Source of the DNA: Pseudomonas syringae KCTC 12500
GTDB lineage: Bacteria; Pseudomonadota; Gammaproteobacteria; Pseudomonadales; Pseudomonadaceae
DNA: 64,000 nucleotides
NCBI RefSeq assembly: GCF_000507185.2
Contig: NZ_AYTM02000002.1
Coordinates: 643,501 to 707,500 of the forward strand
Reading direction: 5' to 3'
Part shown: piece after piece, positions 9,809 through 13,251 of the stretch
How the letters are laid out: the number at the start of each line of letters is the position of its first letter
How positions within the stretch are numbered: position 1 is the stretch's first letter
Translations under genes and position numbers: made by a program
Notes under the pieces: model-generated
Seen by the model: the letters and a program-made list of their open reading frames with translations, nothing else
The model's database searches: none
What the model was told of the DNA's origin: nothing

Positions 9809-10498
9809 TCACCCGGCAATACCGCGAAGCGCGATTTCGCTCAGAATGCGTTCCAGCACCTGTTCGATGGACAATTCAGTGGAATCCAGCTGTATGGCGT
9901 CGTGCGCCGGCTTCAACGGTGCTACCGCTCGCTGGGTGTCACGCTCGTCGCGTGCACATATCTCATCTAGCAGACTCGACAGACTAACATCATCGCCCTT
10001 GGCCTTCAACTGCAAGTAACGTCGACGCGCACGCTCCTCGGCACTGGCGGTGAGGAATATCTTCAGCGGTGCATCCGGAAAGACCACGGTACCCATGTCG
10101 CGACCGTCCGCGACCAGACCCGGCTCTTCCTGAAACGCTCGCTGACGCAACAGCAACGCATCGCGCACCGCCGGCAGCGAGGCCACCTGTGATGCGCCAC
10201 TGCCGACCTGCTCGTTGCGAATGGCGTGGGTGACGTCCTCGCCTTCCAAAATGATGCGCTGCCCCTGCCCTGCCGCAGTCGCTTCGAACTGAACATCAAG
10301 ATGAGCGGCCAGAACCTTGAGCGCTTCTTCATTGGTCAGGTCGACACCGTGATTGCGCGCCGCGAAAGCCAGCAGGCGATACAACGCGCCGGAGTCGAGC
10401 AGGCACCAGCCAAGTTTCCTGGCCAGCAATCCGGCGACAGTGCCCTTTCCGGAACCGCTGGGGCCGTCGATGGTAATAACAGGAGCTTTGATTTTCAC
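9809..10498 (-). CDS. cmk: Cytidylate kinase
   Basis: 229 residues; E. coli Cmk has 227. P-loop [11 protein letters not shown] near residue 8, the substrate-binding [10 protein letters not shown] and [13 protein letters not shown] segments, and the LID region [10 protein letters not shown]. It phosphorylates CMP and dCMP. The start is a GTG at 10498 that overlaps the TGA of the upstream tyrA-aroA' gene in the sequence GTGA, with AGAGGA about 6 nt before it. The longer frame to 10582 lies wholly inside the upstream gene and is not real. Confidence 0.95.
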
Positions 10499-12099
10499 TT
10501 TTTGTCCTCTTGCGCTACACGCATGCCAACTTGAGCGCACAGCGCCAGAAAATGGGGAAACAATGCGGCGGCATCCGCGCACGCCTGGATACGGATGGGT
10601 GCCGAAGCCCTCAACGATGCAACGCGAAACGCCATGACGATACGCTGATCACCGCGAGCATCCACCTCGCCGCCACCCGGCACACCGCCTTCGATAATGA
10701 TGCCATCCAGCACGGGCTCGGCCTCGATACCGAGCGCCAGCAAACCGTCAGCCATCAGCCTGACGCACTCCGACTCATCGGCTTGCAGGGCCTGCGCGCC
10801 GCGCAGAATGGTACGCCCTTCTGCGCAGGCTGCGGCAACAAGAAGCACCGGAAATGCATTCAGCGCCAGAGGCACCAGTGCTTCGGGGATGTCAGCGCCT
10901 TTGAGCCGGGCCGAGCGAACATGCAGGTCAGCGACCGCTTCATTCGCCAGCTTGCGGACGTTCTGCAGCACGATATCGCCGCCCATCAGGCGCAAGATAT
11001 CGATCGCCCCCTCGCAAGAGGAACTGACGGGAACGTCCTCCAGCAGCAGATCGCAGCCTTCACTGATCGACGTCGCGACCATGAACAGCACCGCCGACGT
11101 CACGTCAACCGGCCCCTTGATGCGATGACTGACACCCTCAGCAGACCCACCGTGGAGTGCACGAGGCTCCTCAGGTGCGGTATCGACACGCGCACGGCTG
11201 GCGAGAATTCTGCCGAAGTGCTCCCTCGCTGCGCGTGCACGGGTAAATACATCCATCAACTGCGCGCCATCACCGGCATCCACAGCCTCGCGCAAGGCGT
11301 CGAGATCGGTGCGAAAGCTGTCCAGGGTGCGCAGTACGGCATCACGATTGGCCATGAAAATGTCATGCCACATGGTCGGATCGCTGCCTGCGATGCGCGT
11401 GAAATCACGAAACCCGCCCGCGGCATACCTGAATATGTCCAGGTTCTCATTGCGCTTGGCCAGCGAGTCGACCAGACCGAATGCCAGCAGATGCGGCAGA
11501 TGGCTGGTGGCAGCCAGCACCTCGTCGTGGCGCTCGACCTGCATGTGCTCAACGTCAGCCCCAAGGGCTGACCACAACTGGTCGACAATCGCCACCGCCT
11601 GGGGATCGGTTTCAGTCAGTGGCGTGAGAATGACCTTATGGCGACGAAACAGCGCCGCATTGGACGCCTCGACACCGCTCTGCTCGGAGCCTGCAATCGG
11701 ATGGCCGGGCACGAAGCGCGACGGCATGTGCCCGAACGCCTGACGTGCAGCCCTCACCACATTGCCTTTGGCGCTGCCGACATCGGTCAGGATTGCATGA
11801 CCCAGATCGATCGGCGCCAGCAGCGCAAGCAGCTTTTCCATGGCCAGTATCGGCACCGCCAGCTGGATCACGTCCGCACCACGGCAAGCGGTGGCAAGGT
11901 CAGCCTCACAACGGTCCACGACCCCCAGCTCTACCGCCAGCTGTCGCGACTGCGGATCGAGGTCGACGCCGACCACTTCGCCACACAGGCCGCTTTCGCG
12001 CACACCCTTGGCAAAGGAACCACCGATCAGCCCGAGCCCGACGACCACCAGACGACCGATCACCGGCCGTACTGACTGTTCTGCAATCACATCAACCAC
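10495..12099 (-). CDS. tyrA: Prephenate/arogenate dehydrogenase fused to a truncated, degenerate EPSP-synthase domain
   Basis: 534 residues, whereas the bifunctional TyrA-AroA fusion of other pseudomonads is about 745. Residues 16 to about 300 are a complete TyrA: the NAD-binding [11 protein letters not shown], the catalytic [10 protein letters not shown] near 133, the SHLPHLLA segment and [10 protein letters not shown] near 228. A short linker follows, then only the C-terminal half of AroA (about 326-534). The dehydrogenase oxidises prephenate or arogenate in tyrosine synthesis and should be active. The AroA part has lost its first ~220 residues and key active-site residues. The start is a GTG (12099) with AGGTGT upstream; a second GTG at 12090 is possible. 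It overlaps cmk by 4 bp. The gene hisC2, which lies between pheA and tyrA in P. aeruginosa, is absent. Confidence 0.9.
10498..11124 (-). other. Vestigial AroA (EPSP synthase) domain within the tyrA reading frame
   Basis: Residues 326-534 of the fusion align with the second half of Aro[76 protein letters not shown] and [15 protein letters not shown] are all recognisable. The functional signatures have drifted: the DEFP/DEYP segment with the catalytic Asp is NAFP (414-417), the KESDR motif is DESEC (441-445), the DHR motif is DQR (484-486), and SFP near the end is LFP. The N-terminal half, with the phosphate-binding GDKS and the SAQVKS segment, is gone. It cannot be an active EPSP synthase on this evidence. 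The preserved frame could reflect a structural role for TyrA, or simply the need to read through into cmk. Confidence 0.85.
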
Positions 12100-12156: not shown

Positions 12157-13251
12157 TCAGAGCACCGCTTTCGGGTAGGAACCCAGCACCTTCAAGGCGA
12201 CGGCTTCGCTGCTGATTCGCTCCAGCACGGCCTTGACCAGCGGATCCTTGTGATGGCCGACGAAGTCAATGAAGAACACGTAGGTCCACTTGCCACTGCG
12301 CGAAGGACGGGTCTCGATACGCGTCAGGTCCAGGCCATTCTCGTGAAACGGCACCAGCAGCTCGTGCAGCGCGCCCGGCTTGTTGCTCATCGACACAATG
12401 ATCGAGGTTTTGTCATCGCCGGTCGGCGGGACTTCCTGATTGCCGATAATGAGAAAACGCGTGGAATTGTCCGGACGATCTTCGATCTTTTCCGCCAGTC
12501 GGGTCAGGCCATACAGACCTGCCGCCATATCGCCGGCGATGGCCGCCGAGTTCCACTCGCCCTTTACCCGTTTGGCAGCTTCGGCGTTGCTGGCAACGGC
12601 GACGCGCTCGACATTCGGGTAATGGGCATCCAGCCATTTACGGCACTGAGCCAGCGACTGGGCATGGGAATAAATGCGCGTGATGCTTTCCGTCTTGGTG
12701 CTTTCGCCCACCAGCAAATGGTGGTGAATGCGCAGTTCGACTTCGCCGCAGATCACCATGTCGTGTTCAAGAAAGCTGTCGAGGGTGTGATTGACCGCGC
12801 CTTCGGTGGAATTTTCCACCGGAACCACGCCGAAATTCACGGCACCGGCGACCACTTCGCGGAACACTTCGTCAATTGCAGCCATCGGCAGACTGATGAC
12901 GGCGTGCCCGAAATGCTTCATCGCGGCGGCCTGGGTAAACGTCCCCTCAGGGCCAAGATAGGCGACCTTGAGCGGCTGTTCCAGCGCGAGGCAGGAAGAC
13001 ATGATTTCGCGGAACAGACGCGCCATTTCTTCGTTGCTCAACGGCCCGCGATTACGCTCCATGACTCGCCTGAGCACCGCAGCTTCGCGCTCCGGCCGAT
13101 AGAACACCGGCACCTCGCCTTCAGCCAGCGAGGACATCTTGACCCTGGCCACCTCTTGGGCACAGCGGGCACGCTCGCTGATCAGTTCCAGAACCTTCTC
13201 ATCGAGGCTGTCGATACGGACGCGAAGCGCCTTGAGTTCTTGCTCGGACAT
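12157..13251 (-). CDS. pheA: Chorismate mutase / prephenate dehydratase (P-protein)
   Basis: 364 residues with three domains. An AroQ-type chorismate mutase (about 1-90, MSEQELKALRVRIDSLDEKVLELISERA) comes first. The prephenate dehydratase (about 95-270, YLGPEGTFTQ and the catalytic NSTRFLIIG) follows. A C-terminal ACT domain (about 280-360, GALHELLVPF and the ESRP-type segment TRIETRPSR) would bind phenylalanine for feedback inhibition. It makes phenylpyruvate from chorismate. The ATG shares one base with the serC stop (TGATG), so the two are translationally coupled. Confidence 0.96.
   Translation of the reverse strand: MSEQELKALRVRIDSLDEKVLELISERARCAQEVARVKMSSLAEGEVPVFYRPEREAAVLRRVMERNRGPLSNEEMARLFREIMSSCLALEQPLKVAYLGPEGTFTQAAAMKHFGHAVISLPMAAIDEVFREVVAGAVNFGVVPVENSTEGAVNHTLDSFLEHDMVICGEVELRIHHHLLVGESTKTESITRIYSHAQSLAQCRKWLDAHYPNVERVAVASNAEAAKRVKGEWNSAAIAGDMAAGLYGLTRLAEKIEDRPDNSTRFLIIGNQEVPPTGDDKTSIIVSMSNKPGALHELLVPFHENGLDLTRIETRPSRSGKWTYVFFIDFVGHHKDPLVKAVLERISSEAVALKVLGSYPKAVL

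Follow-up and report, generated by a model that had tools for sequence, protein, structure and literature searches.

The question raised by the tyrA gene of Pseudomonas syringae KCTC 12500 is why a dehydrogenase should carry half of a second enzyme. The gene lies in a stretch of 64,000 nucleotides (contig NZ_AYTM02000002.1, positions 643,501 to 707,500; hereafter the window) and encodes TyrA (cyclohexadienyl/prephenate dehydrogenase) fused to the C-terminal half of AroA, the EPSP synthase (EPSPS). In this AroA remnant catalysis is no longer selected, but the protein sequence is still under selection, throughout the clade that carries it. The window gene is not a pseudogene, as it is free of stops and frameshifts and its ratio of non-synonymous to synonymous substitution rates (dN/dS, omega) is far below 1. 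Based on its homology to an enzyme, the loss of catalytic residues and selection at the protein level, the remnant can be classified, as far as sequences allow, as a pseudoenzyme domain.

Selection on the remnant

Twenty truncated loci were fetched, of which five were identical to others and were dropped, leaving 15 distinct loci. None of these contains a stop, and the alignment features no insertions or deletions (indels) in the 208-codon remnant, whereas the linker in front of it carries indels. The absence of stops and frameshifts, noted for the window gene in an earlier sequence-only reading, thus holds for all 15 loci. Neutral simulations at the fitted branch lengths (300 runs) yielded a stop in 10.9 of the 15 loci on average and never in fewer than 6. 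Runs with zero stops made up 1% at a quarter of the branch lengths and 8% at a tenth.

Codon models for residues 327–508 resulted in an omega of 0.140 for the remnant (bootstrap interval 0.111–0.180), compared to 0.049 for the TyrA part of the same loci (0.034–0.060); both intervals come from 60 bootstrap replicates in which the branch lengths were kept constant. For the remnant, omega = 1 is rejected with twice the log-likelihood difference (2dlnL) at 579, and it is also rejected in 14 of 16 segments of fifteen codons. Pairwise counting gave a median dN/dS of 0.128 and a maximum of 0.18 (43 of 105 pairs, with TyrA dS of 0.05–1). Omega was 0.12 on terminal and 0.16 on internal branches (2dlnL 3.9), i.e. 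terminal branches are no more relaxed than internal ones. For the intact C-globule, omega was 0.034 in fusions without a stand-alone AroA copy, and the two groups that have such a copy gave 0.046 and 0.097; the group FULL+S_2 includes the degenerate locus L045.

The sequence-only reading had offered two explanations, selection for a folded, non-catalytic domain or recent loss after a deletion. The former is backed by the omega value and the likelihood test as far as sequence data can do so. The latter is rejected, since the deletion junction is common to the whole clade and the terminal branches show no relaxation. The dN/dS comparison across P. syringae-group loci proposed in the same reading yielded 0.14, which is not near 1. 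Its use of the open frame as a sign of selection is valid for the body of the remnant, but not for the last ~26 codons beside the start of cmk. These codons are constrained as DNA or RNA rather than clearly as protein; they were therefore excluded from the main omega estimate and provide no evidence of protein selection.

Decay of the catalytic motifs

The translation and the family alignment agree with the motifs quoted earlier for the window protein, in which NAFP, DESEC, DQR and LFP (L513–P515) occupy the positions of DEFP, KESDR, DHR and SFP. The protein fails an AroA equivalog test on the motifs of the phosphoenolpyruvate (PEP) site, namely DEFP, KESDR and DHR. R362, K441 and H485 are kept in none of the truncated loci and R445 in one, and the KESDR and DHR patterns are missing in all 12 clustered truncated proteins. 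The proposed loss of the active site is correct in that key PEP-site motifs are changed, but some motif residues survive across the truncated loci (R486 in 15/15, E442 in 14/15 and D414 in 8/15). The motif changes indicate that the remnant is probably catalytically inactive and would be unable to make EPSP.

Near-invariant AroA columns numbered 82 in a set of 35 homologues, and 39 of them, mostly glycines and hydrophobic residues, are unchanged in all 15 loci. The changed columns include the KESDR, DEFP, DHR and NPTR positions. This 'functional' set left out the divergent fusions L094 and L103 but included L107, and all three were later found to be degenerate; the presence of L107 is the reason why, in many cases, agreement of 34 of the 35 sequences was enough for a column to be scored as invariant. 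In the TyrA part, 70 of 70 near-invariant family residues are intact in all truncated loci.

Site classes were compared between the intact group FULL+S_1 and the remnant. Omega increases about five-fold at invariant polar sites (from 0.033 to 0.159), from 0.018 to 0.172 at glycine and proline sites and from 0.033 to 0.104 at hydrophobic sites, while variable polar sites are not relaxed (0.175 and 0.177). The invariant polar class was defined on the group FULL_noS and three further loci. The value of 0.003 for FULL_noS is low by construction, as this group defined the class, so FULL+S_1, which took no part in the definition, was used for comparison.

Deletion and predicted structure

Alignment of the truncated loci with their full-length sister group places the missing piece at residues 324–536 of the full-length protein (213 aa). 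The junction reads GGxVS/(H)RIxGP and is common to the truncated loci aligned. Judged from the alignment, the deleted piece is close to the EPSPS N-globule, and the remnant would correspond to one globule of the two-globule enzyme. The Escherichia coli construct 1p88 (216 aa), which we take to be the isolated EPSPS N-domain, starts at full-length residue 335.

The predicted structure of the 534-aa protein has a mean predicted local distance difference test score (pLDDT) of 84.7 and a predicted template modelling score (pTM) of 0.55. The TyrA part is mostly confident and the linker (residues 301–321) is below a pLDDT of 50. The remnant is mostly confident, with block means of 73–97 over approximately residues 331–500 and of 51–79 thereafter. 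The predicted remnant (324–534) aligns to EPSPS chains from close to one end to close to the other, e.g. to 211 residues of 3tr1 between 12 and 435 at 2.2 Å, and the Foldseek and VIA matches listed are TyrA, EPSPS and MurA chains. The remnant probably folds; the model, which used an alignment containing working homologues, is compatible with the sequence and is no proof of folding.

Distribution and stand-alone AroA

Truncated loci were found in P. cerasi, P. congelans, P. caricapapayae, P. amygdali, P. tremae, P. avellanae and a P. syringae pathovar, among others. The same length class occurs in proteins labelled P. coronafaciens, P. viridiflava and P. floridensis. In the TyrA tree the 15 loci form one clade (support 100), whose sister (support 94) is the P. 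capsici type with a full-length fusion and intact motifs. All 534 residues were matched in 11 of the 398 sampled genomes of the genus, and the 12 clustered public truncated proteins measure 516–545 aa.

The genome of the window contains three places matching PF00275, which are MurA, a stand-alone AroA and the remnant. The stand-alone AroA (G000:C2:3557864-3559117, 418 aa) passes the NCBIfam aroA cut-off and features KECDR and DHR. It is nearer to E. coli EPSPS (1g6s, E-value 8e-61) than to CP4 (2gg4, 6e-34), whereas the order is reversed for the intact fusion P0012 (5e-37 and 2e-110, respectively). The sequence-only reading had anticipated an EPSPS encoded by another gene, possibly of a different class, and this gene was found; its product is nearer to the E. 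coli type, and an intact fusion of the group is nearer to the CP4 type. Each of the 11 truncated genomes carries a stand-alone AroA, as do, at E ≤ 1e-100, 116 of the 398 genus-sample genomes. In the P. syringae group EPSP is hence expected from the stand-alone enzyme, a point to bear in mind when gene lists are used to predict the effects of herbicides.

Fate of the fused domain in other lineages

Based on the TyrA tree, two Pseudomonas lineages (five loci and one locus) deleted the whole AroA domain cleanly. The TyrA omega of the five-locus lineage is 0.060, which is a usual value. One of 34 full-length Pseudomonas loci, L045, is degenerate, and its genome (G020) has a stand-alone AroA, which is split across both ends of a single contig. 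Among the 107 full-length proteins listed, 105 lack no motif, while P0016 and P0018 lack one of five patterns. L045 and P0016 are full-length fusions that are beginning to lose EPSPS motifs. The fusions L115, L116 and L118 (genomes G034, G080 and G076) have broken frames, possibly due to assembly errors.

Outside Pseudomonas, 24 genomes of the order with a fusion were fetched, out of 25 with frames of at least 737 aa; G139 (internal stop) was left out, as were the shorter-frame G099 and G138. Motifs are degenerate in three of the four genomes with a stand-alone AroA (G113, G124 and G135) and in none of the 20 without. Judged by the nearest named proteins, the genus of G113 is Marinomonas. All 39 Marinomonas genomes have a match to the full-length fusion and a stand-alone AroA, with G462 showing a stop in both. 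All 19 loci checked have degenerate motifs; the fits used 19 of the 20 loci fetched from these genomes, as L134 (internal TGA) was dropped. Among the 120 proteins listed, the best 100 (Marinomonas-like, P0121–P0220) lack both KESDR and DHR. The other 20, including Neptunomonas, comprise 12 without KESDR and DHR and 8 with all five patterns. For the six closest Marinomonas pairs, dN/dS ranges from 0.05–0.13 in AroA and from 0.04–0.08 in TyrA. In the Marinomonas-type loci L107 and L127–L146 recurring new motifs (such as HQSRESLYL and LLEEFNEL) replace the old AroA motifs. L107 lacks KESDR, DHR, NSGT and SAQ but still passes the cut-off of the bifunctional NCBIfam family (914 compared to 902 bits), an example of how annotation can mislead.

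In the genus of G124 (L147–L154), where 8 of 8 have a stand-alone AroA, the C-globule drifts and most N-globule motifs are kept, which is the reverse of P. syringae. Five of its six closest pairs yielded a C-globule dN/dS of 0.17–0.40, while the sixth pair is near-identical. The genus of G135 has a stand-alone AroA in 6 of 6, and its decay is partial. These sequences show that degenerate EPSPS domains are found on TyrA recurrently, in several lineages.

Proposed explanation and alternatives

We regard it as moderately probable that the window gene encodes a working TyrA with a C-terminal pseudoenzyme, the EPSPS C-globule on a flexible linker of ~25 residues, which is retained for a non-catalytic function. 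An ancestor with a working TyrA-AroA fusion would have gained a stand-alone AroA, a step supported by the distribution. The alignment shows that a single deletion of approximately the N-globule then left a nearly domain-exact remnant. The codon models show that the PEP-binding residues decayed, while purifying selection went on acting on the remainder of the domain for as long as the clade has existed. The remnant may finally have been retained for a non-catalytic service to TyrA, most likely steadying or positioning the dimer, or binding a partner or ligand. Degenerate EPSPS domains on TyrA in other genera suggest that this non-catalytic job may have predated the loss of catalysis.

More tentatively, and with slightly less than even confidence, we propose that fused AroA has a second, non-catalytic job on TyrA and was repeatedly freed into a pseudoenzyme after a stand-alone EPSPS took over. 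If true, the label 'bifunctional enzyme' would conceal a whole family of regulators or scaffolds formed by pseudo-EPSPS domains bound to TyrA. Its cases would be the P. syringae half domain and the full-length degenerate domains in Marinomonas, in a Neptunomonas-type set and in two further genera.

Several points speak against retention for a function. Constraint on the remnant is weaker by a factor of about four than on intact AroA in the group lacking a second copy. Neither the disordered linker nor the pTM of 0.55 points to a fixed interface between the remnant and TyrA. The clean losses of the whole domain, in one lineage with a usual TyrA omega, indicate that TyrA can do without it. The genus of G124 keeps the opposite half, indicating that no single half is universally needed, and together with the genus of G135 it does not fit a rule that TyrA needs the C-globule. 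The association of in-frame AroA loss with a stand-alone copy counts in favour of the proposed explanation, as such loss was observed in 9 of the 28 genomes of the genus that have this copy and in 0 of 61 without (89 genomes, Fisher p = 1e-5, with the broken frames of G034, G076 and G080 counted as not lost). Against it, the 9 genomes represent three events on the TyrA tree, and the Fisher counts, both here and outside Pseudomonas, treat kin as independent. No experiment on the remnant was found in the literature.

The main rival explanation, which we consider rather unlikely but worth serious attention, is that the remnant is a trapped passenger. The start of cmk would force the frame to be read through, a misfolded tail would be harmful and clean in-frame deletions would be rare. 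Consistent with this, the GTGA stop/start overlap and AAGAGG eight bases before the stop are present in 15 of 15 truncated loci; with this overlap and a ribosome site in the upstream gene, tyrA and cmk are predicted to be a translationally coupled pair. With the exception of L014, the remaining Pseudomonas loci printed have a stop/start overlap as well. Relative to the gene mean, the synonymous rate of the truncated loci falls to 0.23 in the penultimate 15 codons and to 0.07 in the last 15. Full-length fusions accompanied by a stand-alone AroA show the drop at the 3' end too (0.12 and 0.20), but those without do not (1.06). The lineages that lost the domain entirely kept approximately the last five codons with AAAGAGG and GTGA, which fits a trapped frame and at the same time indicates that the cmk signal needs little.

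However, frame-keeping alone predicts an omega near 1 among non-stop changes, and this is rejected by the likelihood test. Cmk coupling as the sole cause is ruled out by omega. A passenger would thus need added selection against misfolding, and it does not easily account for variable polar sites, where the constraint on the remnant (0.177) matches that in intact groups (0.175 and 0.125). The four Marinomonas loci printed have cmk 18–19 nt past the stop, with a Shine-Dalgarno sequence of its own, so the overlap is no explanation for the degenerate domains that persist there.

A residual role of the remnant in enolpyruvyl transfer or in binding a ligand of the shikimate pathway, e.g. paired with the stand-alone AroA, is highly improbable. 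The surviving R486, E442 and D414 are in line with such a role, but the N-globule, which holds most contacts to shikimate-3-phosphate, is gone, and K441, R445, R362 and H485 are each retained in at most one of the 15 loci. Furthermore, the invariant polar class is relaxed relative to an independent intact group, and the stand-alone AroA is itself complete and belongs to another type. Neutral decay of a pseudogene fragment that has yet to meet a stop would fit the lost motifs and the weaker constraint, but is hardly credible and was rejected in view of the expected stops, the omega of 0.140 and the unrelaxed terminal branches. An artefact, which the earlier reading had named, in the form of an assembly deletion, as something that would refute it, was rejected and has a negligible probability, as the same form recurs in 15 distinct loci, in the 12 clustered proteins and in separately sequenced named genomes, including two with 'complete' in their titles (P. 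cerasi and Pseudomonas sp. KUIN-1).

Comparison with known systems

The locus is of the type described by Song et al. 2005 (BMC Biol 3:13, PMC1173090), who reported an N-terminal EPSPS deletion of ~200 residues in the tyrA-aroF fusion of P. syringae and the acquisition, thought to be lateral, of a stand-alone EPSPS gene. They suggested that the remnant might give rise to a regulatory domain. The anatomy and the guess of a regulatory domain have thus been known since 2005 and are not new. The accessible part of that paper contains no selection test, clade-wide sampling, link to cmk coupling or dead EPSPS domains in other lineages. It describes the stand-alone gene as absent from other members of the clade, whereas it was detected here in 116 of 398 sampled genus genomes. 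In a literature search, with subscription journals mostly outside its reach, the titles listed included the 2005 paper, and none of them dealt with selection acting on the remnant or with inactive EPSPS domains in Marinomonas. The remark of 2005 becomes a testable case. Related genomes serve as natural controls, featuring an intact fusion, an intact fusion with a redundant enzyme, a degenerate full-length domain, a half domain or a clean loss, and let one ask why a dead domain is retained.

According to the accessible part of a study on Candida albicans Aro1 (PMC9074039), an inactive dehydroquinase (DHQase) domain mediates homodimer formation, while the stand-alone Dqd1 can do the reaction. 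A separate gene of the Dqd1 type is present in all Candida species with inactive domains, and DHQase mutants of Aro1, one of them with a linker in place of the domain, showed no effect on growth (PMC9074039). In both cases a fusion of the shikimate pathway retains a domain that is dead or probably so, and the step is covered by a separate enzyme of a different type. Aro1 differs in being fungal, in concerning another enzyme and a whole domain, and in having been tested experimentally, whereas the half domain of P. syringae is bacterial and known from sequence.

The full-length TyrA-AroA fusion (NF011381/PRK14806) is homologous in TyrA and the C-globule and likewise precedes cmk in the Pseudomonas loci read, but its N-globule and motifs are intact. 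ACT domains are small ligand-binding folds without enzyme origin. The TyrA of Bacillus anthracis (PDB 5uyy; ACT removed in 7mqv, according to the titles), whose structures were among those matched, also has a C-terminal non-catalytic domain. Unlike this ACT domain, the remnant of P. syringae is an EPSPS globule.

Features of the locus

The gene extends from a GTG start at 12099 to a stop at 10497-10495 and its product comprises 534 aa. The earlier description of a TyrA fused to a half-length AroA with 534 codons is borne out by the open reading frame (ORF) and Pfam, with the correction that the gene is on the minus strand. Pfam detects PDH_N at residues 29–183 and PDH_C at 189–285; both domains and the family-invariant residues are present, which assigns the protein to TyrA. 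EPSP_synthase (PF00275) at residues 303–518 scores 91 bits, above the cut-off of 22.8, but covers only profile positions 206–414 of 417, i.e. the C-terminal half. The score for NF011381 (bifunctional prephenate dehydrogenase/EPSP synthase) is 711.4 bits, which is below the cut-off of 902, compared to 1269 for the full-length L024. For TIGR01356 (AroA equivalog) it is 114 bits and below 287.25, with residues 314–526 aligned to profile positions 208–414 of 415.

A simple scan of positions 10300–10800 found no sigma-70 promoter or terminator pattern, and no Rfam family was matched at E ≤ 0.1 between 9700 and 13300. Between pheA and tyrA, hisC2/hisHb are absent in the window, and their absence at this place is stated for P. 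syringae, P. fluorescens and P. putida in the accessible part of PMC1173090. The full-length fusions fetched from the genus measure 746–753 aa, all but one 746–748, in agreement with the ~745 codons given earlier for other pseudomonads. Coordinates are summarised in Table 1.

Table 1 Features of the tyrA locus in window coordinates
Feature	Position	Strand	Basis or remark
tyrA with AroA remnant	10495..12099	minus	534 codons and stop; ORF, Pfam and NCBIfam matches
TyrA (cyclohexadienyl/prephenate dehydrogenase) part, residues 1-299	11203..12099	minus	PDH_N, PDH_C; invariant residues; omega
Linker, residues 300-324	11128..11202	minus	predicted disordered; indels between species
Deletion junction S324/H325	11127..11128	minus	same in aligned truncated loci; exact base inferred from alignment
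EPSPS C-globule remnant, residues 326-534	10498..11124	minus	
NAFP (formerly DEFP), residues 414-417	10849..10860	minus	translation, family alignment
DESEC (formerly KESDR), residues 441-445	10765..10779	minus	translation, family alignment
DQR (formerly DHR), residues 484-486	10642..10650	minus	translation, family alignment
Last 26 tyrA codons, low synonymous rate	10498..10575	minus	codon-model rates
AAGAGG, Shine-Dalgarno-like for cmk, within the tyrA frame	10506..10511	minus	sequence
cmk (cytidylate kinase)	9809..10498	minus	named from place and sequence, without family search; GTG start overlaps the tyrA stop (GTGA)
pheA (AroQ-PheA)	12157..13251	minus	directly upstream of tyrA; named from place and sequence

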